From positions 310,001 through 374,000 of the forward strand of contig NZ_JANIDW010000003.1 of the NCBI RefSeq assembly GCF_026385475.1: 64,000 nucleotides of DNA, read 5' to 3'. The notes below the pieces were generated by a model. The model did not search any database, was not told where the DNA came from, and worked only from the letters and a program-made list of their open reading frames with translations. This document shows, piece after piece, positions 25,741 to 35,476 of the stretch. The stretch comes from Bombella saccharophila. Its GTDB lineage: Bacteria > Pseudomonadota > Alphaproteobacteria > Acetobacterales > Acetobacteraceae. How positions within the stretch are numbered: the first letter of the stretch is position 1; each line of letters opens with the position of its first letter. Both the position numbers and the translations under genes were made by a program.

Positions 25741-27255
25741 ATGATGTTTGATATTTCCTTCACTACAGAGCGCCAAGGGCAGGATAAAGCCGGTCTTTCT
25801 GCGTTGTTATTGTGCCATGGGGCAGAGTTTACCAAGGGCGCGTTATTTCAGCATTATGATAAGATGTTAGGCGGGGCTTTAGCGCGGGCGGCCTCTTTGC
25901 GGGCATTTGCGGGGAAGGTGGGGGAGAGTGTTAGCCTCATCGCCCCAGAAGACTCGATAGCGCAATTCCATCTCATCGGTTGTGCCCCGTGTGATGATGA
26001 GCCTCAAACAACAGCGCAGGCGATGCAGTTGGCAGGCGGCAATGCGCTGCGTCTTTTAGCCCATAGTAAAATTAAAGCGGATAAGGCCAGCTTGTTGGTC
26101 GAGGCGGAGCAAGCCCCTCTTGCTGCGGAGCTTGCTTTAGGAGCCCGTTTGGGGGGCTATCGGTTTGACCGTTACAAAACAGTGAGCCAAAAATCGCAAA
26201 GCCTTAAGGTACTTCACATCGTTGTGCCCTCCACAGGGGCGATAAAGGAGCTTGAGGCACGTTGGGCCGAGCTGGAAGGCTTAGGGGACAGTGTGTTCCT
26301 TACGCGTGACCTCGTTAATGAGCCTGCAAATCGTTTAACGCCGGCTGTGTTTAAGGACCGGATTCAGGAGCTCTCCGCCCTTGGTTTGGAGATTGAAGTG
26401 CTGGACCGCGCGCAGATGGAAGCCCTCGGCTTTGGGGCTTTGCTGGGTGTAGCACAAGGCAGTGAGCAACCGCCCTTTACGGTGATTATGCGCTATCAGG
26501 GGGCCGCTAAAGCAGAGACGGCACCGCTGGCTTTTATCGGTAAGGGCGTGACATTTGATTCTGGCGGTATTTCCATCAAGCCCGCAGCGGGGATGGATGA
26601 GATGAAGATGGATATGGGCGGGGCTGCTGCCGTTGTGGGTGTGATGAGCGCATTAGCCCGCCGTAAGGCCGCAGTGAATGCCATTGGGGTTGTTGGGCTG
26701 GTGGAGAATATGCTCTCCGGTGCGGCGCAACGTCCGGGTGATATTGTTAAAAGCCATAGTGGCCAGACCATTGAGGTGTTGAACACGGATGCAGAAGGCC
26801 GCCTTGTTTTAGCAGACCTCCTCTCTTATACGCGCCAAACTTATAAGCCTGCGCTGATGGTGAATCTCGCGACCCTAACCGGGGCCATCGTTGTAGCGTT
26901 GGGGAATGATATTGCCGGCTTATTTAGCAATAACGACCAGCTTGCTCAGGCTTTAACAAAAGCAGGGGATGAAACAGGAGAGGCTTTATGGCGTATGCCG
27001 ATGGGGCCTGCTTATAACCGGCGTATTGATTCCGACATTGCCGATATGAAGAATATCGGTGGCCGGCCGGGTAGCTCTAGCTTGGCAGCGGAGTTCCTCA
27101 AACGCTTTGTCGGTGAGACTCCTTGGGCGCATCTGGATATTGCCGGTACGGCATGGGCTGAAAAAGCAACAGCCTTAACCCCTAAGGGGGCGAGCGGCTT
27201 TGGGGTGCGTCTGTTGGACCGTTTTGTTCAGCTTTACAGCGATACAGCGTCATAA
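25741..27255 (+). CDS. pepA: Leucyl aminopeptidase (M17 family, PepA)
   Basis: PepA is a hexameric cytosolic metallo-aminopeptidase that trims N-terminal residues from peptides; in some bacteria it also binds DNA. The 504-residue protein has the variable N domain (residues 1-170) and the catalytic M17 domain. Metal and catalytic residues lie in IGKGVTFDSGGISIKP, MKMDMGGAAAVVG and the signature NTDAEGRLVLADLL. The order pepA-holC is common in proteobacteria. Fifteen bases separate it from holC, and the hydrogenase-like genes follow without a gap, so this may be the promoter-proximal gene of a long transcript. Confidence 0.95.
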   Translation: MMFDISFTTERQGQDKAGLSALLLCHGAEFTKGALFQHYDKMLGGALARAASLRAFAGKVGESVSLIAPEDSIAQFHLIGCAPCDDEPQTTAQAMQLAGGNALRLLAHSKIKADKASLLVEAEQAPLAAELALGARLGGYRFDRYKTVSQKSQSLKVLHIVVPSTGAIKELEARWAELEGLGDSVFLTRDLVNEPANRLTPAVFKDRIQELSALGLEIEVLDRAQMEALGFGALLGVAQGSEQPPFTVIMRYQGAAKAETAPLAFIGKGVTFDSGGISIKPAAGMDEMKMDMGGAAAVVGVMSALARRKAAVNAIGVVGLVENMLSGAAQRPGDIVKSHSGQTIEVLNTDAEGRLVLADLLSYTRQTYKPALMVNLATLTGAIVVALGNDIAGLFSNNDQLAQALTKAGDETGEALWRMPMGPAYNRRIDSDIADMKNIGGRPGSSSLAAEFLKRFVGETPWAHLDIAGTAWAEKATALTPKGASGFGVRLLDRFVQLYSDTAS

Positions 27256-27270
27256 GGTAAGGGACGCGTT

Positions 27271-27762
27271 ATGGAGCATCAGGCGGAGGGGATGGGTGAG
27301 AGCGCACCGTCAGAGCGTGCGATGGTCGGGTTCTACCACCTTACCCGCACCACTTTGGAGGAAGCCTTACCCGCTTTGTTGGAGCGCACCTTAGAGAGCG
27401 GGGCGCGGGCGGTTGTGCGCTGTGAGGATGCCGCTCAGGTTAAGGCCTTGGATGAAGTGTTATGGAAAGTCCCTCCCTTGATGTGGCTCCCGCATGGTTA
27501 TGCAAAAACAGGCCAGGCACATCGCCAACCCATCTGGCTTACAGAGTCTGACGAGCGACCGAATGAAGGGACGTTCCTTTTTCGGCTCAACGGGGCGTGG
27601 GATGGCGATTTGGTGGGTTTTCAACGTGTGTTCGACCTCTTTGATGGGCGTGATGAGCAAGCGGTTCAGCAAGCACGCCAGCGGTGGAAAAGCCTGAAAC
27701 AAGCCGGTTACGGCATGACCTATTGGCAGCAGCAGGCCAAAGGTTGGGCGAAGAAGGGGTAG
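27271..27762 (+). CDS. holC: DNA polymerase III chi subunit
   Basis: Chi links the clamp-loader complex to single-strand binding protein. The 163-residue protein contains the chi-family start MVGFYHLTRTTLEEALPAL, the central CEDAAQVKALDEVLW, and the tail FQRVFDLFDGRDEQAVQQAR followed by RWKSLKQAGYGMTYWQQ. The ATG at 27271 is preceded by AAGGTAAGGGA and gives a 17-residue extension; the conserved start would be the ATG at 27322, which lacks a good ribosome-binding site. It ends 8 bases before the membrane cluster. Confidence 0.88.
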   Translation: MEHQAEGMGESAPSERAMVGFYHLTRTTLEEALPALLERTLESGARAVVRCEDAAQVKALDEVLWKVPPLMWLPHGYAKTGQAHRQPIWLTESDERPNEGTFLFRLNGAWDGDLVGFQRVFDLFDGRDEQAVQQARQRWKSLKQAGYGMTYWQQQAKGWAKKG

Positions 27763-27770
27763 AATAGTCT

Positions 27771-29069
27771 ATGCCGTTTCATGATCCCTTTTTGCTCTGC
27801 TTGCTGGCATTATTAGCCCTATTGCTTTGTGGTGATGGGGCTGTGCGCGTGTTTGTCCGTGGGTTATGGCGGTCTGTTCCTGTTGTTACATGGCGGCAAG
27901 GGGGCTGCCATATGGCGGGGTTCCTCATGGCCTTTGCCGCTTTAGGGCTGGTTGGGCATGCGGGGGCTGCAGCGTGTTTGGTGGCTCTAGCCCTGCTCTT
28001 TTTTGGCGGCGGGGCGGCTTTTCGCCCTATATGGGGGGTACCTGCGTTATTAGGGTATGGCCTCTCTCCAACCGGGCTAGGCGGACTGGGGTTGATGGCC
28101 TTGTGCCTTTGGGCGGCAGGCCAAGCGCAGATGAGCCGGGTAGGGCAGGTTGTAGCGATAGTGCTGCTTATAGGGTTGGGTCATGGGGGGGCATCAGCCC
28201 ATCCATTATTATGGCTGGGTGGGAGCGTTGCCCTCGTAGCGATAGGCCTTTTAGTAGAGTTAGGGCGCGATTGGGAGGTTTTGTTACGCTCTTGTCGTTT
28301 GCTGCGGCCGTTAATGCTTTTAGGTCTTATGGAAATCTCCCGCCAGCAAGGCCTATCAATAGGGGTAGAAACAGCATTTTGCGCCTTACTATTGGATGTA
28401 ACTTGCCAAACTATCGCGGCTATTTGGCCATTTGCTGTGTGTTTGAGCATCCCCGCCCCACCCTTGCCGGGCTTTGTTGTTGGGTGGATGGGGTTGCATA
28501 CCGCATTGGGTTTGAGCGGAGGAACCGAAGGCTGGGCTGTGATAGGGTGTATTCTAGCCATTATGGTGATGGGCTTATCATTAGGGGATGGGATGGTTAG
28601 CCTCCGTGAGGCTGCCTCTATCCAACCATGTAAGCGGGTGGAATGGGGGATAGGCCTCATCATAGCGGCTCTTTTACCGTCCCTATGTGGGTTTGTGACG
28701 CAATGGATGCCCGGTGCAGCAGGTCATAGAGGGGCGTGGTTTTATCGCCTCCCCGGTGGAGATGGGAGCATGATAGCCCTCCCTCTTTTCTGGCTGGTAG
28801 TATTTGTGGTGTGGTGGGGCCTCTCACGCGGGCGTGTTAAGACGTGGCAGTCGCGTATTAGGATGGACGTGTTAGCAGTGGGTATGCAGGCTACCCCGCT
28901 GCGTTTACGGCCTATAAGACGATTATTAGTACGTGGGCAGCAACAGCTACGTCTGCTTCACAGCGGTGGTGCAGCGTTTTTATCCGCTTTGCCGTTGCGT
29001 GACCCTGGCGCGGCGTTCTGGCTGGTCTTTTTGGGAGGTGTGCTGGTTGTGTTGGGGTTAACCCAATGA
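27771..29069 (+). CDS. Polytopic membrane protein at the antiporter-subunit position of a hydrogenase-4-like cluster
   Basis: The 432-residue, extremely hydrophobic protein has roughly ten or more membrane helices. By position it corresponds to HyfB, the NuoL/M/N-like proton channel subunit, but similarity is thin: the best landmark is PPLPGFVVGWM (230-240), like the PPLxGFxxxW loop of these antiporters. I do not see the canonical lysine/glutamate motifs in the expected helices, and HyfB is normally about 670 residues. It may be a reduced, possibly non-pumping version. The stop overlaps the next start by 4 bases (ATGA), as in the following genes, which argues for one complex. Function unproven. 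Confidence 0.55.
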   Translation: MPFHDPFLLCLLALLALLLCGDGAVRVFVRGLWRSVPVVTWRQGGCHMAGFLMAFAALGLVGHAGAAACLVALALLFFGGGAAFRPIWGVPALLGYGLSPTGLGGLGLMALCLWAAGQAQMSRVGQVVAIVLLIGLGHGGASAHPLLWLGGSVALVAIGLLVELGRDWEVLLRSCRLLRPLMLLGLMEISRQQGLSIGVETAFCALLLDVTCQTIAAIWPFAVCLSIPAPPLPGFVVGWMGLHTALGLSGGTEGWAVIGCILAIMVMGLSLGDGMVSLREAASIQPCKRVEWGIGLIIAALLPSLCGFVTQWMPGAAGHRGAWFYRLPGGDGSMIALPLFWLVVFVVWWGLSRGRVKTWQSRIRMDVLAVGMQATPLRLRPIRRLLVRGQQQLRLLHSGGAAFLSALPLRDPGAAFWLVFLGGVLVVLGLTQ

Positions 29070-29944
29070 AGAATGCCATGATGCCATACCTCATAGAGGG
29101 CGTGCGCCTAGGGTTAGAGCTTGCGAGCCAAAGTGTGGTGTTGCTTGTTTTAATACCCTTTATGGTATGGGTGACGGAGGATCTACCTGCTCTTCTGATA
29201 GGGCGTGCAGTAGCCCCATTGGGTAGTCGTTATCGGCGTTTCGGGCATTTTGGGCGGGAGATTTTACGGCACGGTATTGATGTAGAAAGCGGGTTGATGC
29301 TGACGCTTGCCCTTTTAGCCCTGCTTATTTTAGCGGGGATGTCCTTTTTTACACCGTCCTGTTTAGGGCTGGTAGGGGCATGGCTTGCAGACCCGCTTTT
29401 GGTGGGGAGCCTCATTTTAACAGGGGCTTTATGGGCTGTGCCTGCTTATTTTGGGCAAGTAGTGCGGTGTTGGTTTGTTCTGTGTTTGATGGAATCTTTC
29501 CTCGTCCTTGCCGCACCGGGCGTGACGGGTTTTTTGGGGGTGCATCATCTCCTTATTGCCGCCCCCGGCTCTAGTTTGGCAGGGACAGCTTTATGCTGCG
29601 CTGTGGCATTGGCTCTCCTCACCCCTGTGCCGCGCCGTGAGGTTCTGGCTGCTGAGATGATAGAGCAGGCTTGGCCGCCTAGCCGTGCAGAGCGTGACCA
29701 AAAACAGAGGATTTTAGAGCTTTATCGCCTAGGCTGGGTGCTGCTTGTGGGGGATAGTCTTTTACCGGTGCTATTCGGGCTGGAAGGGCTGGGAAGTGTG
29801 GCTGGTTTTATAGGGCGGTTTATGGGCGGGGTGGTGCTCATCCTTATAGGACGCTTTACAAGGGTGGATCGTTACAGGCGTTTTGTTGCGTTGCTCCTAG
29901 GTTTAGCTGGATTGATGGCTTTGGCTGGGAGATTTGCCGTATGA
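29066..29944 (+). CDS. HyfC/NuoH-like membrane subunit
   Basis: This 292-residue protein has about eight membrane helices. In Complex I and group 4 hydrogenases, NuoH/HyfC anchors the hydrophilic arm to the membrane arm. Supporting features are the first helix with ASQSVVLLVLIPFMVWV, and a cytosolic loop PVPRREVLAAEMIEQAW (187-203) matching the 'KIPFDvAEAEqElqeG' loop of HyfC in position and pattern, followed by a long polar helix (ERDQKQRILELYRLG) before the last helices. The acidic loop residues are only partly kept. It overlaps both neighbours by 4 bases. Confidence 0.6.
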   Translation: MKNAMMPYLIEGVRLGLELASQSVVLLVLIPFMVWVTEDLPALLIGRAVAPLGSRYRRFGHFGREILRHGIDVESGLMLTLALLALLILAGMSFFTPSCLGLVGAWLADPLLVGSLILTGALWAVPAYFGQVVRCWFVLCLMESFLVLAAPGVTGFLGVHHLLIAAPGSSLAGTALCCAVALALLTPVPRREVLAAEMIEQAWPPSRAERDQKQRILELYRLGWVLLVGDSLLPVLFGLEGLGSVAGFIGRFMGGVVLILIGRFTRVDRYRRFVALLLGLAGLMALAGRFAV

Positions 29945-30474
29945 TGACGGGCTTTGCCTGCGCTTTAGTGCTGGTCCTGATGTCCTTAGGGCGGGATGGC
30001 CGCTGGTTACCGCTTTATGGCATTGTTTGTGCGGTACTTGCGGGGACATCAGGGACGAGTTGGGTGGCAGTCTTATGTGTTCTTGTTTTGCCTATTGCTA
30101 ATTTATTGCTGTGGGGGGTGGTACGGCATTTTACAGTTGGGCAAGGTCGTGTTGCTGCACGGGGGCGTGATGTGCTGCCGGTGGTCATGACGTTGTTATT
30201 ACAATTTGTACTGGCTTTTTTTGGGGCAGGGTTGGGCTTGGTCCCTACATTTGGCATCGGGTTGGTCCTAGCCGGGTTATGTGCGGCGGTATGTGGGGAG
30301 GCTCTGTCCCAATTTTGTGGATTAGTGATGGCCGTGGATGGGCTGTTGGTTCTAGCGAGTATTTTGCCATCTTGGGGTGTGTTTGTGATGGGTTTAGCCC
30401 TATGGGGTGTGTTGGTGTTTTTGGCTTTGGTTTTGTTGCCGCGTTTAGCGTGGTGGCGTGTGGAGGATGATTAA
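29941..30474 (+). CDS. HyfE/NuoK-like small membrane subunit
   Basis: A 177-residue protein with five or six membrane helices. Position (between the HyfC-like and the next antiporter-like gene) and a weak match of ALSQFCGLVMAVDGLLVLAS to the HyfE segment 'lrQifGyclmEnGshLvla' suggest the HyfE role. The membrane glutamate of that segment is replaced, leaving only an aspartate two positions on. HyfE is normally a little longer (about 215). It starts at ATGATG overlapping the previous stop and ends at TAATG, shared with the next gene. Confidence 0.5.
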   Translation: MMTGFACALVLVLMSLGRDGRWLPLYGIVCAVLAGTSGTSWVAVLCVLVLPIANLLLWGVVRHFTVGQGRVAARGRDVLPVVMTLLLQFVLAFFGAGLGLVPTFGIGLVLAGLCAAVCGEALSQFCGLVMAVDGLLVLASILPSWGVFVMGLALWGVLVFLALVLLPRLAWWRVEDD

Positions 30475-31727
30475 TGGCCCTTGTCGCTACAGCGTTTGCG
30501 CCGGGCTTATTCGCCTCGCCTATTTTACTGGGGCTATTTTGTTGGCCTTTTTTGGTAGTGTGGGTTCTCTGGGCTGCAAAACGACCAGAGGAAGCCGGGG
30601 CGATGGCGTGGCTTGGCGTGGGGTTGAGTATGCTGGCTTTGCTAGGGTGCTCCTCCCATATAAGTTGGGGGCAAGCGGTTTGTCTGGGGCTTGAATCCTG
30701 CATAGCTGTCATCATTTTGGCTGGGCGTAAGGGAGAGGCTCGCCTTCTTGATGAAAAGAATAAAACGTCTTTTCGTAATGCTAGAGAGTTCTACATCCCA
30801 TTTTTGGTGACGGGCTGTATTTTTATGGCTCTGCTGTTACGTCCGCCCTTAGCTGCGTTGTTTTTTGATGCTGCTGGGACGGTCTTATTGGCATGGTGGG
30901 ATGGGCGTGCCACAAGGCGTGCTATGCCTGCGTGGGAGGTTGTCCGCTTACGGTTAAGTGGTGTGGTGCTAGCCAGTGTAGGGTTAGTCGTTATGCGTGG
31001 GGGGAGTATATTCGCCACGACGGGAAGTGCCATGCAGGTTGGACAAGTCATGGCGCTAACGGGGCTGTGTATGATGGCTGGGCTAGGTACTATGGTCTCT
31101 AGCCGGGCAGAGTTGGCTTTGTTGGATGCTGGGTTACGCTTTATCCCGCTCTTTTTGCTGCCTTTAGTGGTGGTTACCCCACTGGCACGGTCTTTAATGG
31201 TTCTTGCTGGGCTTTTAGCCCTTGGGAGTGTGGCTGTAAGCAGGCGGGGGCGTGTCTCTTTATTATCATGGATGATCGGCTTTGGTGTGCTGGCTGTCGG
31301 GACAGGGCAGATGGTGGTGCTTTTATTGCTCTATAGTGCAGTCTTATTAGCGGCATCTTTGCGTGTGGCGTGCGAGAGGGTATCCGTTACCAGTGTAGGG
31401 GCAGGGCATAACAAGCTGCCTCCCGGAGGGTTAGCGGTCTTACCGATGCAAATGGCCTTGCCACTCCTTATGGTGGTGTTAGTGGTGCTGGCATCTTTGT
31501 TAAGGCCCTTTGCTTTAGGTGGGCTGTTTTTGTGCCTATTGGCAGGATTGTGGGGGTTGGAGCTGGAGACCTTGCCACGGACTTTAATAGTCGTATGGCG
31601 GTGGGGTGATATTCTTATAAAAGGGCTTTTATTGCTTTTAGGAGCGTTAGCATTATTGGGGGTTGTTTTATTAGCCACAGGTCTCATCCCAGAGCCTGTC
31701 CCCTTTACCATGAAAGGGCCCGTATGA
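30474..31727 (+). CDS. Polytopic membrane protein at the HyfF (antiporter-like) position
   Basis: This 417-residue protein has about eleven predicted membrane helices and one polar loop (GRKGEARLLDEKNKTSFRNA). By gene order it corresponds to HyfF, another NuoL/M/N-like subunit of about 525 residues, but no conserved antiporter motif can be pointed to, and charged residues inside the helices are few. It is either a strongly diverged antiporter-like subunit or an unrelated membrane protein recruited to the cluster. It overlaps the next gene by 4 bases, so it is very likely part of the same complex. Confidence 0.5.
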   Translation: MALVATAFAPGLFASPILLGLFCWPFLVVWVLWAAKRPEEAGAMAWLGVGLSMLALLGCSSHISWGQAVCLGLESCIAVIILAGRKGEARLLDEKNKTSFRNAREFYIPFLVTGCIFMALLLRPPLAALFFDAAGTVLLAWWDGRATRRAMPAWEVVRLRLSGVVLASVGLVVMRGGSIFATTGSAMQVGQVMALTGLCMMAGLGTMVSSRAELALLDAGLRFIPLFLLPLVVVTPLARSLMVLAGLLALGSVAVSRRGRVSLLSWMIGFGVLAVGTGQMVVLLLLYSAVLLAASLRVACERVSVTSVGAGHNKLPPGGLAVLPMQMALPLLMVVLVVLASLLRPFALGGLFLCLLAGLWGLELETLPRTLIVVWRWGDILIKGLLLLLGALALLGVVLLATGLIPEPVPFTMKGPV

Positions 31728-33163
31728 TGGTAGAAGCCCCCATCTTGGAGGGAGGGGAACGGGTAGGGCTGTTCCATTACTGTGTATCCGCGTCAGGCTG
31801 GTTACATTTCCTCCAACAAAATGAACGTAGAGTGGCTTTATTGGCCTTTTGGGCCGATGAGGCTTGGGCAACAGCTTTGTTCCTATGTGCGGGGGAGCAA
31901 CCTTTGCTGGTGAGTACGGCTATAGAGCAGGGGCATTATCAAGCTGTGTCGCCTTATTTTCCCGCAGCACAATGGGGCGAGCGCATGGCGCGGGATTTAT
32001 GGGGGGTGGAAGCATGGTCCGCTCGGGATGATAGCCCTGCCCTTGATGATGGTAGTTGGTTTTTGACAACACCATTAGCCACGCACCCATTGCCTGTAGC
32101 TGATGGGGGAGGGCAGCCGTTGCCTGCGTGTCGGATGGAGCCATCACAGACGCAAGTGCCGGGTTTGTTGGCGATTGATTATGCTCTCTCTGAAGGTGTG
32201 ATGCAGCAAATAGAGGTGCAGATTGCTGCTGGGCATCGCGGTGTGCTCTCCCGTTTGATAGGTTTGAGCCCTCAAGAAGCATTGCCGCTGATAAGCCGCA
32301 TCACTGCAAGTGGGTTTGTGTCACACCCTTTGGCCTTTGTAAGGGCGTTAGAGCAAGCAGAAGGCCGTCGCCCTAACCCGCAAGAGCGGGATAGACGTCT
32401 TATTCTGCTGGAGGTGGAGCGCATCGGGGCACATCTTTTTGACCTCCGGCAAATAGCGCATTCTGTTGGAGGTGGGTTGATCGCAAGCTTATGCGATCAT
32501 GCGCGGGAAGCTCTTGCTGCATTATGTGAGGAATATGGTCTGTCCCGACGTTTGACCGATAGTATCGTGCTAGAGCGAGCGTCTGAAGAGACAGGAATTT
32601 TACCTTTTGTACAGGCCTTATTATTGATGGTGCGCCCCCGCCTTATGCAGATCAAACAGGTCATGGGTGTATTGGATAACCGGCTGAAAAATAGTGCTAT
32701 CATCCCTACTGGGCTGGCATGGGAGTACGCTTTGGGCGGGGTGGTTGGCCGGGCTAGTGGGCGGTATGTGGATTTCCGCCTGATGGATGAAGGTATGCGC
32801 GTGCAGGCTTTAGGTGGTGCGAGGCGGCATGAAGGTGATGCCTGGGCACGGTATCGCCAGCGCATTGTAGAATGTGAGGAATCGCTTCGTATTATGGAGC
32901 AGATTGTCGCATCATTTGGGCAAGATAGTGGGGGGGAGGTTATCCCGCGCACAGATGAAGGGCTTGGCGTTGCGGAGGGTGCGTATGGGGACGTATGGTA
33001 CCATCTTCAGCTTGAAGCAGGGCGTATTACAAAGATACAGATACGCGACCCCGTTTTGCCCCTTCTGGCTGTTTTGGGAACAGTGCTGGAAGGACAACCG
33101 CCAGAAGAGGTGGAGGTGATGTTAACGTCTCTTGGTATTTCGCCCGCTGGTGCTGCGTTGTGA
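31724..33163 (+). CDS. HyfG/NuoCD-like large subunit lacking the nickel-site cysteines
   Basis: The 479-residue protein fuses a NuoC-like part (residues 1-130, with ERMARDLWGVEAW) to a NuoD/hydrogenase large-subunit part. HRG (171-173), the following helix and LLEVERIGAHLFDL (228-241) match the 'HRGmEk' and 'lLEvERlhsHLlnL' motifs of HycE/HyfG closely. Where group 4 hydrogenases carry the nickel ligands CGIC, this protein has ASGFVSH (195-201), and the C-terminal 'DPCxxC' reads RDPVLPLL (from 441). All four cysteines are thus missing, as in NuoD and in the Ehr (Ech-hydrogenase-related) complexes. It should not bind nickel. Its 3' end overlaps the converging lipid kinase by 42 bases. Confidence 0.8.
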   Translation: MMVEAPILEGGERVGLFHYCVSASGWLHFLQQNERRVALLAFWADEAWATALFLCAGEQPLLVSTAIEQGHYQAVSPYFPAAQWGERMARDLWGVEAWSARDDSPALDDGSWFLTTPLATHPLPVADGGGQPLPACRMEPSQTQVPGLLAIDYALSEGVMQQIEVQIAAGHRGVLSRLIGLSPQEALPLISRITASGFVSHPLAFVRALEQAEGRRPNPQERDRRLILLEVERIGAHLFDLRQIAHSVGGGLIASLCDHAREALAALCEEYGLSRRLTDSIVLERASEETGILPFVQALLLMVRPRLMQIKQVMGVLDNRLKNSAIIPTGLAWEYALGGVVGRASGRYVDFRLMDEGMRVQALGGARRHEGDAWARYRQRIVECEESLRIMEQIVASFGQDSGGEVIPRTDEGLGVAEGAYGDVWYHLQLEAGRITKIQIRDPVLPLLAVLGTVLEGQPPEEVEVMLTSLGISPAGAAL

Positions 33164-34093
33164 TGGGGTTGATGGGGCTACCGGTTGTGGGGGGGCAATA
33201 ATTTTTAAGAGGGTTGGTGCGCTTGTAATGCGCAGTGGCGTTACCCCGCGAAAATCTCCATCACTTTGGGCAGGGATGGGACTGGTGTGATCACAGATAA
33301 TTGTCTCTCCGGTAAGGATGGTAAAAGCGGGGTTGGAGGAAGGGCGTCGTTTAAGCCGCATCATGATCATCTGCCAGATGATAAGCAACGGGTTAAGCCG
33401 GTGGAGGAGCAAAACAGAAAATGCGGGTTGGTGATGGAGATTATGGTGGAAGAGCGCAAATGGTCCCCCATAAAGCCGCCCTTTGGAAATGATGCTTAAA
33501 ACAGTGCGATGAGAGATGCCATCGACACGTGTTTTAAAAGGCGGAAGGGGGCGGGAGAGGGCAAGCTGTAAGGCTGCAATAACATAAGCTACGCGCCCTG
33601 TGTGTTTTTTGAGCATCGGTGAGAGATTTTGGACAATCCACCCATCTAGCCCAACCCCTGCCATTTGGAGAAATAAGGTTGGGGTTGTTTGTTCAGCCGT
33701 TGTGATTTGACCAGGCCAAACAGTTCGTCTCGTGCCACGGGCGAGGAGGGCTGCATTTTCAGCATCATCAAAGGGAATATGAAGCTCCCGCGCTAAGACA
33801 TTAGCCGAGCCAATTGGCCAGAGCGCAAGAGCGCAAGGAGCCTTCATCATCGCTTGGGCAATTTCGGCAATGGTGCCATCGCCGCCGCCAGCAATGATGA
33901 TATCTGGTGTATTGCGGGCAAGATAGCTTCGGACAATCTCGGTACTATGTCCTTGGCGGCGGGTGAGTTCCACCTGCACGTCACATCCTATATGCTCAAG
34001 CTGTTGAACAAAATTGGTGAGTCTTTGTTCCGTATAATGACCAGCAGTTGGATTGACCACCAGTAGGAGATGACGGCCGGCTGATTGACTCAT
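33122..34093 (-). CDS. Diacylglycerol/sphingoid kinase family lipid kinase
   Basis: The 323-residue protein belongs to the DAGK catalytic (DagK/YegS/LCB5) family: phosphate-binding VNPTAGHYTEQR at the start, the nucleotide motif IIIAGGGDGTIAEIAQAM and ALWPIGSANVLARELHIP. These enzymes phosphorylate a lipid alcohol, often diacylglycerol, at the membrane surface. It lies antisense between the large-subunit gene and the HyfI-like gene of the hydrogenase-related cluster, overlaps the former by 42 bases, and is divergent from the latter. Its job may relate to pssA and psd next door rather than to the cluster. The lipid substrate cannot be read from sequence. Confidence 0.86.
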   Translation of the reverse strand: MSQSAGRHLLLVVNPTAGHYTEQRLTNFVQQLEHIGCDVQVELTRRQGHSTEIVRSYLARNTPDIIIAGGGDGTIAEIAQAMMKAPCALALWPIGSANVLARELHIPFDDAENAALLARGTRRTVWPGQITTAEQTTPTLFLQMAGVGLDGWIVQNLSPMLKKHTGRVAYVIAALQLALSRPLPPFKTRVDGISHRTVLSIISKGRLYGGPFALFHHNLHHQPAFSVLLLHRLNPLLIIWQMIMMRLKRRPSSNPAFTILTGETIICDHTSPIPAQSDGDFRGVTPLRITSAPTLLKIIAPPQPVAPSTPSQRSTSGRNTKRR

Positions 34094-34175
34094 GAGCGGG
34101 GACTTCCTTTGGGGACGAGATAATTGAGTGTATAAGGGGAGTCTACACGTTGTTTTGCAGGAGAGCGAATATAGA

Positions 34176-34694
34176 ATGGAATTGGCACCTTTGACGATGG
34201 TCCTCGCTTTCTTGGATGTACAAAAATGGCGGCCTCATGCCAAACAACGTAGTGGACGGTCTATCCGGCTCTTTACTTTGGAAACAGGCAGTTGTGAAGG
34301 CTGTGCAAGGGAGTTGATCACTCTGGGAGGCAGTGCCTATCCGCTGGAGGGGAGTGGCTTTGAGCGCGTACAACACCCTCAAGATGCTGATTGGTTGCTC
34401 GTAACAGGGGCAGTGACGCGCTCTAGCGCGGGGGGATTAGCCAGCGCGTGGGAGGCTATGCCCCCCGGGCGCAGCCTGATTGCTATAGGGGATTGCGCTT
34501 ATAATGGCGGGCTGTGGGGAAGTAACTATACAACGCTAGGTGGGATTGCTGCCCTTAGCCGTGTATATAGCACTATCCCCGGTTGCCCGCCTTCACCAGA
34601 GGCTATTCTTCACGCCTTGGTGGAATTAGCAGAGGGCGGGTCATCCTCTACAGTCTCCCATGAATCCTCTGCCTCGCGGCGTAGCCGCCAATAA
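34176..34694 (+). CDS. HyfI/NuoB-like iron-sulfur subunit of the hydrogenase-related complex
   Basis: The 172-residue protein is the NuoB-type small subunit that holds the N2 [4Fe-4S] cluster next to the large subunit. All four ligands are in place: Cys40 and Cys43 in LETGSCEGCARELITL, Cys107 in IAIGDCAYNGG and Cys137 in TIPGCPPSPEAIL. I chose the ATG at 34176 (MELAPLTMVL), which has GGAGAG about 9 bases before it; an upstream GTG at 34128 would add 16 residues. The last 85 bases overlap the converging pssA gene, and the Ser/Arg-rich tail encoded there looks unconserved. An antisense kinase gene separates it from its partners, so it must use its own promoter in 34094-34175. Confidence 0.82.
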   Translation: MELAPLTMVLAFLDVQKWRPHAKQRSGRSIRLFTLETGSCEGCARELITLGGSAYPLEGSGFERVQHPQDADWLLVTGAVTRSSAGGLASAWEAMPPGRSLIAIGDCAYNGGLWGSNYTTLGGIAALSRVYSTIPGCPPSPEAILHALVELAEGGSSSTVSHESSASRRSRQ

Positions 34695-35476
34695 GAACGG
34701 CGTGAGAGAGGGATCATAATAAGGTAAAGTATGCCCGCAGCGGCTAAGGCCCCCCAGGGCTCTGCGATCAGAATGGCTGCATAAGCGCCCGTGCCGACCA
34801 GCATAGGCAGAATATAGCGGGAGGGGACCTTGAAGTTCTTAAACGACCAAATAGGCAAGGTCGAGACAAGGAGGAACGCCGTTACAATCAAGCAGGTAGC
34901 GGCCAACCACGGGGAGTGAGCAAAACGAGCAACCCCCTCTAAGTGGTTGCGATGGGCTTCTAACCCCAAAAAGACGGGGAAAAGAGCAAGTCCCGCCCCG
35001 GCAGGGGCCGGCACACCGGAGAAGAAGTTAGCGGCATATTCCGGCGCGGTATCATCATCCAAAGCAGAATTAAACCGTGCAAGGCGTAAGGCCATGCATA
35101 CGGTGAATAAAATGAAAGGGATGAAGGAGAGCCGCTCTGTCGCAGGTAAGGCCCATAGCATGAGGATAAAGGGCGGGACGACACCAAAACACACAAAGTC
35201 CGAAAGGCTATCAAACTCCGCCCCAAAACGGGATGTCCCTTTTAAGAGGCGGGCAATGCGGCCATCTAGCCCATCCATACAAGCGGCGATGAGCAAAGCC
35301 GCTGCTGCGTGGGTGAAGTGCCCCGTCATGGAGAACTTAATCGCGCTTAGCCCCGCGCAGAGGCCGAGCATGGTAAGGATGTTCGGCACTAGGCGATTGA
35401 AGGAACGGCCATGAACACGGCGGCGTTTGCGCCGGTAACGGCGGACCATGATTTTACCAGATGTAGGTTTTTGCAT
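34610..35476 (-). CDS. pssA: CDP-diacylglycerol--serine O-phosphatidyltransferase
   Basis: PssA makes phosphatidylserine from CDP-diacylglycerol and serine. The 288-residue membrane protein has the CDP-alcohol phosphotransferase signature DGLDGRIARLL, then GAEFDSLSDFV, after a strongly basic N terminus (MVRRYRRKRRRVHGR). About eight helices follow, longer than the minimal family. I use the ATG at 35476 (MQKPTSGK), 10 bases after the psd stop; the frame is open upstream but overlaps psd. With psd it converts CDP-DAG to phosphatidylethanolamine. Confidence 0.92.
   Translation of the reverse strand: MQKPTSGKIMVRRYRRKRRRVHGRSFNRLVPNILTMLGLCAGLSAIKFSMTGHFTHAAAALLIAACMDGLDGRIARLLKGTSRFGAEFDSLSDFVCFGVVPPFILMLWALPATERLSFIPFILFTVCMALRLARFNSALDDDTAPEYAANFFSGVPAPAGAGLALFPVFLGLEAHRNHLEGVARFAHSPWLAATCLIVTAFLLVSTLPIWSFKNFKVPSRYILPMLVGTGAYAAILIAEPWGALAAAGILYLIMIPLSRRSYWRLRREAEDSWETVEDDPPSANSTKA

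Follow-up and report, generated by a model that had tools for sequence, protein, structure and literature searches.

A derived, nickel-free hydrogenase-4/Complex-I-type assembly kept under purifying selection in Bombella

The description of the Ehr complexes reportedly goes back to Marreiros et al. (2013). In the portions of PMC6349859 that deal with them, these assemblies resemble group 4 hydrogenases, are devoid of the Ni/Fe-binding residues, carry antiporter-like subunits, and are suspected to couple redox chemistry to charge translocation. Here we describe a six-gene locus of this general type in Bombella saccharophila, a member of the Acetobacteraceae. The locus lies in a stretch of 64,000 nucleotides of RefSeq assembly GCF_026385475.1 (contig NZ_JANIDW010000003.1, positions 310,001 to 374,000 of the forward strand), which we call the window and in whose coordinates all positions are given. 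The six genes encode a hydrogenase-4/Complex-I-type assembly, with subunits B, C, E, F and G plus I, and all six are under purifying selection. The form to which they belong is derived and is widely kept across the acetic-acid clade of the Acetobacteraceae and its relatives. In composition the complex is known, being of the Ehr type; what appears to be new is a derived form that, judged from the aligned residues, has also parted with the recognised ion-path and quinone-site residues while staying under selection.

The closest relatives are nickel-free operons of other Acetobacteraceae, which we call canonical. They share with the window locus the six subunits, their order, the absence of nickel cysteines, the failure of HyfA and HyfH to be found, and the [4Fe-4S] cysteines. 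Unlike the window form, which has lost all of these, they keep the E-channel, the antiporter Glu and Lys residues, and the His and Glu of the beta1-beta2 loop. The Ehr complexes have in common with the window complex large and small subunits without Ni/Fe ligands, and membrane subunits that are antiporter-like (Mrp-type) by fold. The known ion-path residues, however, are missing from the latter, a difference that concerns the suspected function of Ehr and is not strictly defining. Subunit order, the HycC fold of B and the cysteine pattern of I are shared with formate hydrogenlyase (FHL) and hydrogenase-4 of E. coli (Hyc/Hyf), but the window complex lacks the [NiFe] ligands, ferredoxin-like subunits in the cluster, HypD, the E-channel and the HycC residues. 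Complex I is approached in that G is like NuoCD, I like NuoB, and the fold of F like NuoL; the window cluster differs in having no NADH module, no NuoI and no quinone Tyr or His, and in a CxxC that replaces the CC of NuoB.

A parallel of another kind is offered by the "deranged" bc1 of Acetobacteraceae, for which the relevant sections of PMC10715153 propose a structural role tied to the stabilisation of Complex I. As those sections have it, this too is a respiratory complex of the same bacterial family that was kept after its cofactor-binding residues were lost, though it belongs to another protein family. The main text of that article contains no "hyf" and a single "hydrogenase" (type 1). For Bombella intestini, the main text of the genome paper (PMC5112900) gives a respiratory chain of type II NADH dehydrogenase (NDH-2), electron transfer flavoprotein (ETF)-quinone oxidoreductase, bc1 and bo3; it nowhere speaks of a hydrogenase. 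No description of the derived form was found in the open-licence PMC literature, subscription papers lying outside that search.

In the window, five of the genes follow one another on the forward strand with successive overlaps of 4, 4, 1 and 4 bases. B (27771..29069, 432 aa) is a HyfB/HycC-like antiporter-type subunit, C (29066..29944, 292 aa) is a HyfC/NuoH-like membrane anchor whose E-channel loop is mostly deleted, E (29941..30474, 177 aa) is a HyfE-like membrane subunit, F (30474..31727, 417 aa) is a HyfF-like antiporter-type subunit, and G (31724..33163, 479 aa) is the HyfG/NuoCD-like large subunit. The sixth gene, I (34128..34694, forward strand, GTG start), encodes the small subunit, which resembles HyfI/NuoB and carries a single [4Fe-4S] site (C56, C59, C123, C153). 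Coordinates and frames are as given in a preliminary description, which had been made from the letters of the window and had proposed five coupled genes plus a sixth, with HyfB-, HyfC-, HyfE-, HyfF-, HyfG- and HyfI-like products. The identities also hold, by Pfam for G and I, by chains of profiles, and by predicted folds for F and B.

Pfam matches above the family cut-off are restricted to G (PF00346, E 6e-11) and I (PF01058, E 1e-19), confirming a large subunit like HyfG/NuoCD and a small one like HyfI/NuoB; a PF00329 match in G (0.0015) falls below its cut-off, and neither Pfam nor NCBIfam gives a supported match to B, C, E or F. G is further placed by alignment A2 and the residue tables, I by alignment A1, and E by synteny and hhalign. 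As A2 includes E. coli NuoCD and HyfG, a PDB profile search with it is uninformative. The loci compared were L022-L063, of which L022-L026 include Bombella, Parasaccharibacter and Saccharibacter, and in most of these, iterated profiles brought out the gene order of the window operon. With hhalign, the rows of the window's own group (here acetous rows) are joined to intermediate rows, and these to the canonical ones, at 96.8% and 100% for B, 99.4% and 99.9% for C, 97.1% and 75.7% for E, and 99.3% and 97.5% for F. The direct comparison of acetous with canonical rows gives 98.2% for C. For B (48.9%), E (2.1%) and F (4.4%) the direct link is weak, and the homology of these three rests on the chain through the intermediates. 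Within the compared sets, the best-scoring profile-profile counterpart of every subunit is its own type.

Folds were predicted with AlphaFold for B and F. The F model (predicted local distance difference test, pLDDT, 87.3) matches E. coli NuoL with Z 28.8 over 372 residues at 3.7 A, and chain D of the Mrp complex 7qru with Z 27.0. The B model (pLDDT 81.5) comes closest, among PDB entries, to E. coli HycC (7z0t_C, Z 20.4, 328 residues, 3.7 A). Its residues 1-414 superpose on 61-592 of the HycC chain, so the first helices are gone. Foldseek with B alone returns nothing at E <= 0.001, the best match being 7z0s_C (E 0.039, probability 1.00). The underlying alignments, A5 and A6, hold four canonical rows each, which may favour the canonical fold. 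No membrane subunit was found to match an unrelated transporter family; the predicted folds match NuoL (F) and HycC (B). The membrane subunits had been described as much reduced, which is apt for B (432 against 672 aa in HyfB) and F (417 against 526) and less so for C (292 against 315) and E (177 against 216).

The canonical relatives are recognised without such chains. E. coli HyfB, C, E, F, G and I find seven loci directly (for L058, HyfB at 1e-105 and HyfF at 3e-90); B and F of L058 pass the NCBIfam cut-offs for "hydrogenase 4 subunit B" and "F", and in L063 PF00361 picks up both B and F, and PF00146 picks up C. Our residue table covers 40 loci, these seven canonical ones (L052, L057, L058, L060-L063) and 33 derived ones, the window included. 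Left out of the residue and tree counts are two near copies (L022, L029), a locus with a broken G (L047) and a 10-base placeholder (L064).

Group 4 [NiFe] hydrogenases bind nickel through two CxxC motifs of the large subunit; the columns of the nickel-binding HycE residues C241, C244 and C531 are occupied by T, G and S in the window G. The full cysteine set is kept in 0 of the 40 loci, canonical ones included, L054 having a single Cys (at 244). Since the set is gone from the canonical loci too, the nickel was lost before the other residues. HypD (PF01924) has no match in the whole window genome, with a positive E. coli control, and HyfA, HyfH and NuoI have none among frames of at least 90 aa in the window or the loci. 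Fer4_10 (PF13237) gives two matches in the whole genome, a 474-codon frame and a ferredoxin that we take to be FdxA-like. PF00361 has no match anywhere in the genome, and the sole PF00346 match is G itself, which scores 49.9 bits against TIGR01962 (NuoD), where the cut-off is 459. The DRIEY motif of NuoCD aligns with SRITA in G and its GPNH loop with EPSQ; the quinone Tyr and His are missing. By these measures the complex is neither a [NiFe] hydrogenase nor a Complex I. The preliminary description was right that nickel-site cysteines, a ferredoxin-like subunit in the cluster, hydrogenase maturation genes (judged by HypD) and an obvious electron donor are all absent, and right to see an Ehr-like composition. 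What it missed is that the form is derived and widespread, with relatives whose membrane subunits are normal.

Further losses separate the derived loci from the canonical ones, the residue roles being those assigned in the pertinent parts of the FHL structure paper (PMC9474812). His188 and Glu193 of the HycE beta1-beta2 loop are both kept in 7/7 canonical loci and in 1/33 derived loci (L055). The HycD glutamates E130, E138 and E206 occur together in 7/7 and 0/33, respectively. HycC E135, K239 and E391 are all present in B of the seven canonical loci, whereas none of the three is found in any of the 31 derived loci with a B. For subunit F, alignment A3 covers part of the loci only (4 canonical and 15 derived rows). 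In it, 4/4 canonical and 0/15 derived rows have the lysines of the GTK and HxxxHxxxK motifs, and 4/4 and 1/15 (L054) the counterpart of HycC Glu135; the window F has none of the three. Of the NuoH-type loop of C, which runs between "P.D.P" and "EYSG", the aligned derived rows retain little. Neither the canonical nor the derived group has the quinone tyrosine of Complex I.

Little that is ionisable has been fixed in the membrane arm. Each membrane subunit has 11-21 positions conserved at 90% or more in 18 derived core rows. At this threshold, conserved D/E/K/R/H number 1 in B, 3 in C, 1 in E and 2 in F over 17-18 core rows, and over 24-27 rows (acetous plus intermediate) none is left in B, C or F and one, an Arg, in E. 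The canonical sets show 5 to 15 such residues, a comparison that is only indicative, as identity is also higher among their rows (45-49%) than among the derived ones (26-41%). On average, B, C and F have about the same share of charged residues as canonical rows, and E has a lower one.

The iron-sulfur site and much of the large subunit are conserved. I keeps the CxxC...C...C pattern, and 40 of 42 small subunits, L022 and L029 included, have all four [4Fe-4S] cysteines. Positions conserved at 90% or more in the derived core number 43 in I (12 rows) and 73 in G (18 rows). Thirty-six of the 73 are D/E/K/R/H/C/Y, among them Arg192, which aligns with the Arg of the NuoD DRxxY motif, a residue that presumably stands beside cluster N2. 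At the position of HycE Arg478, the window G has a Tyr (in EGAYGDVW), and five other Bombella rows (L023, L024, L025, L027, L028) have Arg.

Selection was measured as the ratio of nonsynonymous to synonymous divergence (dN/dS) by NG86 with our own script, in five informative Bombella pairs; window-L022 (too alike) and the window with L025, L026 or L028 (dS saturated) were excluded from the range. All six genes give 0.04-0.22 across the five pairs. For L024-L028 the values are 0.094 (B), 0.070 (C), 0.045 (E), 0.121 (F), 0.076 (G) and 0.044 (I), compared with 0.062, 0.081 and 0.041 for the neighbours pepA, holC and nadC. The six genes span 0.067-0.157 in L024-L027, 0.049-0.173 in L025-L028, 0.088-0.181 (in any case within 0.067-0.181) in L027-L028 and 0.111-0.223 in window-L023. 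For neighbouring genes the same pairs give 0-0.17, except a diacylglycerol-kinase-like (DAGK) gene at 0.13-0.29. All six genes are therefore under purifying selection, and neither neutral ratios nor frequent stop codons were seen in sister strains. G is a single open frame in all loci read with a G match except L047, in genome G126; there B, C, E, F and a distant small subunit are still found, which looks like a recent loss in a single lineage.

The form extends well beyond Bombella. A G match occurs in 130 of 150 genomes of the family, some of them weak and probably cross-matches to NuoD, which is itself over cut-off in 125 of the 150. Ten genomes that are at least 98% complete have no NuoD over cut-off (G000, the window genome, and G032, G118, G054, G131, G061, G136, G070, G101 and G066; 15 less complete ones were not used), and nine of these keep G. 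The complex is kept in genomes of 1.9-2.6 Mb without a recognised Complex I. A HyfF-family match at E <= 1e-50 is found in 82 of the 150 genomes, in 45 over cut-off, and 43 of the remaining 68 have a G match at E <= 1e-10; 30 of these 43, the window's included, were read as loci, with counts taken by eye from the tables. The acetous F alignment, run against 289 genomes of the class, finds only the window genome; it missed G040 and G122, whose F was recovered by iterated profiles, and is too insensitive to show that the derived form is absent outside the family.

In a maximum-likelihood tree of G (41 rows), the derived rows fall on one side of a single branch, with support 96/99 and recovery in 98% of 200 bootstrap trees. 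The tree holds Acetobacteraceae and E. coli HyfG only, and the HyfG branch is very long, leaving the root insecure. With HyfG placed among the canonical rows, the topology fits a single origin of the derived form.

Taken together, these data lead us to favour, tentatively and with a little less than even confidence, a reading in which this real, selected six-subunit membrane complex, derived and nickel-free (Ehr-type), would be a one-cluster module for electron transfer or redox sensing and would no longer pump ions. At the cytoplasmic face of the membrane, I and G would share a single N2-type [4Fe-4S] cluster, and this would exchange electrons with a soluble low-potential carrier, of which the FdxA-like ferredoxin is one candidate, or with some other protein. 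B, C, E and F would anchor the module and give it a platform, without moving ions any longer. The electrons would pass to a membrane acceptor or partner, or the redox state of the cluster would itself be the signal. A new ion-linked module, as first proposed for the locus, has become less probable now that the known ion-path residues prove to be lost. A more specific proposal, to which we give a lower though still appreciable chance, is that the complex gave up both pumping and hydrogen or quinone chemistry at the known sites, and was repurposed once, in the ancestor of the acetic acid bacteria and their relatives, as a membrane redox sensor or electron-transfer platform that has persisted even after Complex I was lost.

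Several observations weigh against the proposed redox module. The membrane subunits are only 14-19% identical to canonical rows, a divergence so high that single columns may be misaligned; conservation inside the derived group suggests that the losses are not merely misalignment. Counterparts of putative proton-path residues persist in the derived G (HycE His284 in 30/33, Arg395 in 32/33, Glu437 in 32/33), the canopy Arg (HycE Arg478) is kept in 21/33 derived rows, and such residues could mean chemistry at a remodelled site. The small subunits of L055 and L085 do not show all four cysteines. A cluster that lacks any recognised substrate site might serve the structure only, with no redox activity. 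No donor, acceptor or partner of the complex was recognised. The window-L022 pair gives dN/dS of 0.46 for C and 0.68 for I, though the two are near-identical with very few changes. Finally, G is broken into separate frames in L047, and G066 has neither NuoD nor G, so the complex is dispensable somewhere.

The locus is a natural experiment on the Complex I superfamily, in which fold, subunits and one Fe-S site have stayed under selection without the quinone or nickel site and without the recognised ion paths. With it, the purpose of the architecture could be told apart from the requirements of pumping. It also flags a conserved membrane complex without an explained role in acetic acid bacteria and bee symbionts.

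An alternative that we consider unlikely, yet worth serious attention, is that the complex transfers no electrons at all and acts as a scaffold or assembly factor. The cluster would then join G and I, and the membrane arm would stabilise or organise other respiratory enzymes, with bo3 oxidase or the pyrroloquinoline quinone (PQQ)/flavin dehydrogenases as candidates. Such a role would agree with the loss of catalytic and ion-path residues while fold and purifying selection stay, with the few conserved polar residues of the membrane arm, and with the structural role proposed for the deranged bc1 in the sections of PMC10715153 cited above. That proposal, however, is tied to stabilising Complex I, which was not found in the window genome; a Complex-I-stabilising role would be unavailable in these symbionts, as there is no recognised Complex I there. 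Moreover, four cysteines kept in 40 of 42 small subunits are more than a scaffold would seem to need.

We are more doubtful still of an enzyme that remains coupled to ions or quinone through a remodelled pathway, unrecognisable from the residues of Complex I and FHL. The antiporter-type folds of the B and F models, the persisting counterparts of His284, Arg395 and Glu437, and a charged-residue content of B, C and F near the canonical average are all in its favour. A shared pathway should nevertheless leave a trace, and no D, E, K, R or H is conserved at 90% or more in B, C and F across acetous and intermediate rows; the ND1-type loop that forms the quinone and E-channel entrance is, in addition, mostly deleted.

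The two remaining alternatives are very improbable. An ordinary functional Ehr that merely evolves fast, with donor and acceptor as in other Ehr, would fit the six-gene composition and order that the window cluster shares with the canonical loci, which are nickel-free too, but the losses fall at the same sites in nearly all derived loci and 7/7 canonical relatives keep these residues. The other, raised in the preliminary description, is a hydrogenase-4-like operon in decay whose frames are as yet intact; the membrane subunits, shortened beyond Pfam recognition, and the broken G would agree with it. This relic was discarded on the dN/dS range and on frame retention (G open in all derived loci read but one), and it also sits poorly with a tree on which a single inferred change precedes wide retention, including in small genomes without Complex I.

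The surroundings of the operon bear on its history. Many derived loci have the order pepA-holC-[aldo/keto reductase]-B..G-I-pssA-psd-gloB. In the window, pepA-holC lies upstream at 25741..27762 on the forward strand (PF00883, PF04364), marking the orthologous locus. Neither pepA, holC nor pssA appears in the stretch read around any of the seven canonical loci. In Saccharibacter (L026), I overlaps G by 4 bases and is followed by pssA, with no DAGK gene between. In Bombella, a DAGK-like gene stands between G and I, and I still abuts pssA. In the window this gene is at 33122..34093 on the reverse strand (PF00781, E 1e-23) and lies outside the complex. To call I a displaced sixth gene is misleading for the window locus: I has stayed beside pssA, and in Bombella the DAGK-like gene was inserted between it and G. 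In B. favorum (L024, 9530-12400), a 956-aa frame, TonB-dependent-receptor-like as read from its sequence, lies between G and the DAGK gene, and the DAGK-like gene of L027 (4633-5614) falls into two frames.

In other genera I has been relocated away from the operon, and it is present in eight genomes where read. A whole-genome search with A1 gives small-subunit-like matches in 21 of 22 genomes, in a list that mixes I and NuoB, and none in G066. Loss of the small subunit where I is not beside G was considered and rejected for eight of nine such loci, as relocated I genes were found. The ninth is L059, the second copy in G062, beside which no small subunit was found; this genome holds a canonical operon (L058) together with a second G-B-C copy carrying derived-type residues.

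An aldo/keto reductase gene, labelled by eye and confirmed with PF00248 in the two tested, lies upstream in 19 loci (L033-L044, L047-L049, L051, L053, L056 and the canonical L063). It was rejected as a required partner, being absent in Bombella and Saccharibacter. In five loci (L080, L081, L082, L084, L086), I is upstream of an NtrR/NUDIX-like regulator gene and nadA-nadB-nadC, with a 4-base overlap between I and the regulator gene in L082 and L084. In the window, too, nadCBA lies close by. We do not take the nadCBA proximity as proof of a functional link to NAD synthesis; it is read as neighbourhood, because the wider region tsaC-cysQ-pepA-holC-B..I-pssA-psd-gloB-nadCBA is syntenic.

The window genome has 1.9 Mb in 17 contigs. 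Its G is essentially identical to the large subunit of L022 (Parasaccharibacter apium AS1), and the next named matches are Bombella. Against L023 (Bombella ESL0385), synonymous divergence (dS) is 0.05 for pepA, 0.14 for B, 0.28 for C, 0.69 for E, 0.72 for F, 0.61 for G, 1.0 for the DAGK gene, 0.25 for I and 0.06 for pssA, and this pattern over about 29000-34700 suggests that recombination has exchanged most of the operon in one tract. The true start of I is probably the ATG at 34176, since the L023 homologue begins 16 codons later (172 against 188 aa). I and pssA converge, their 3' ends overlapping by 85 bases (34610-34694), and the same overlap is seen in L023.

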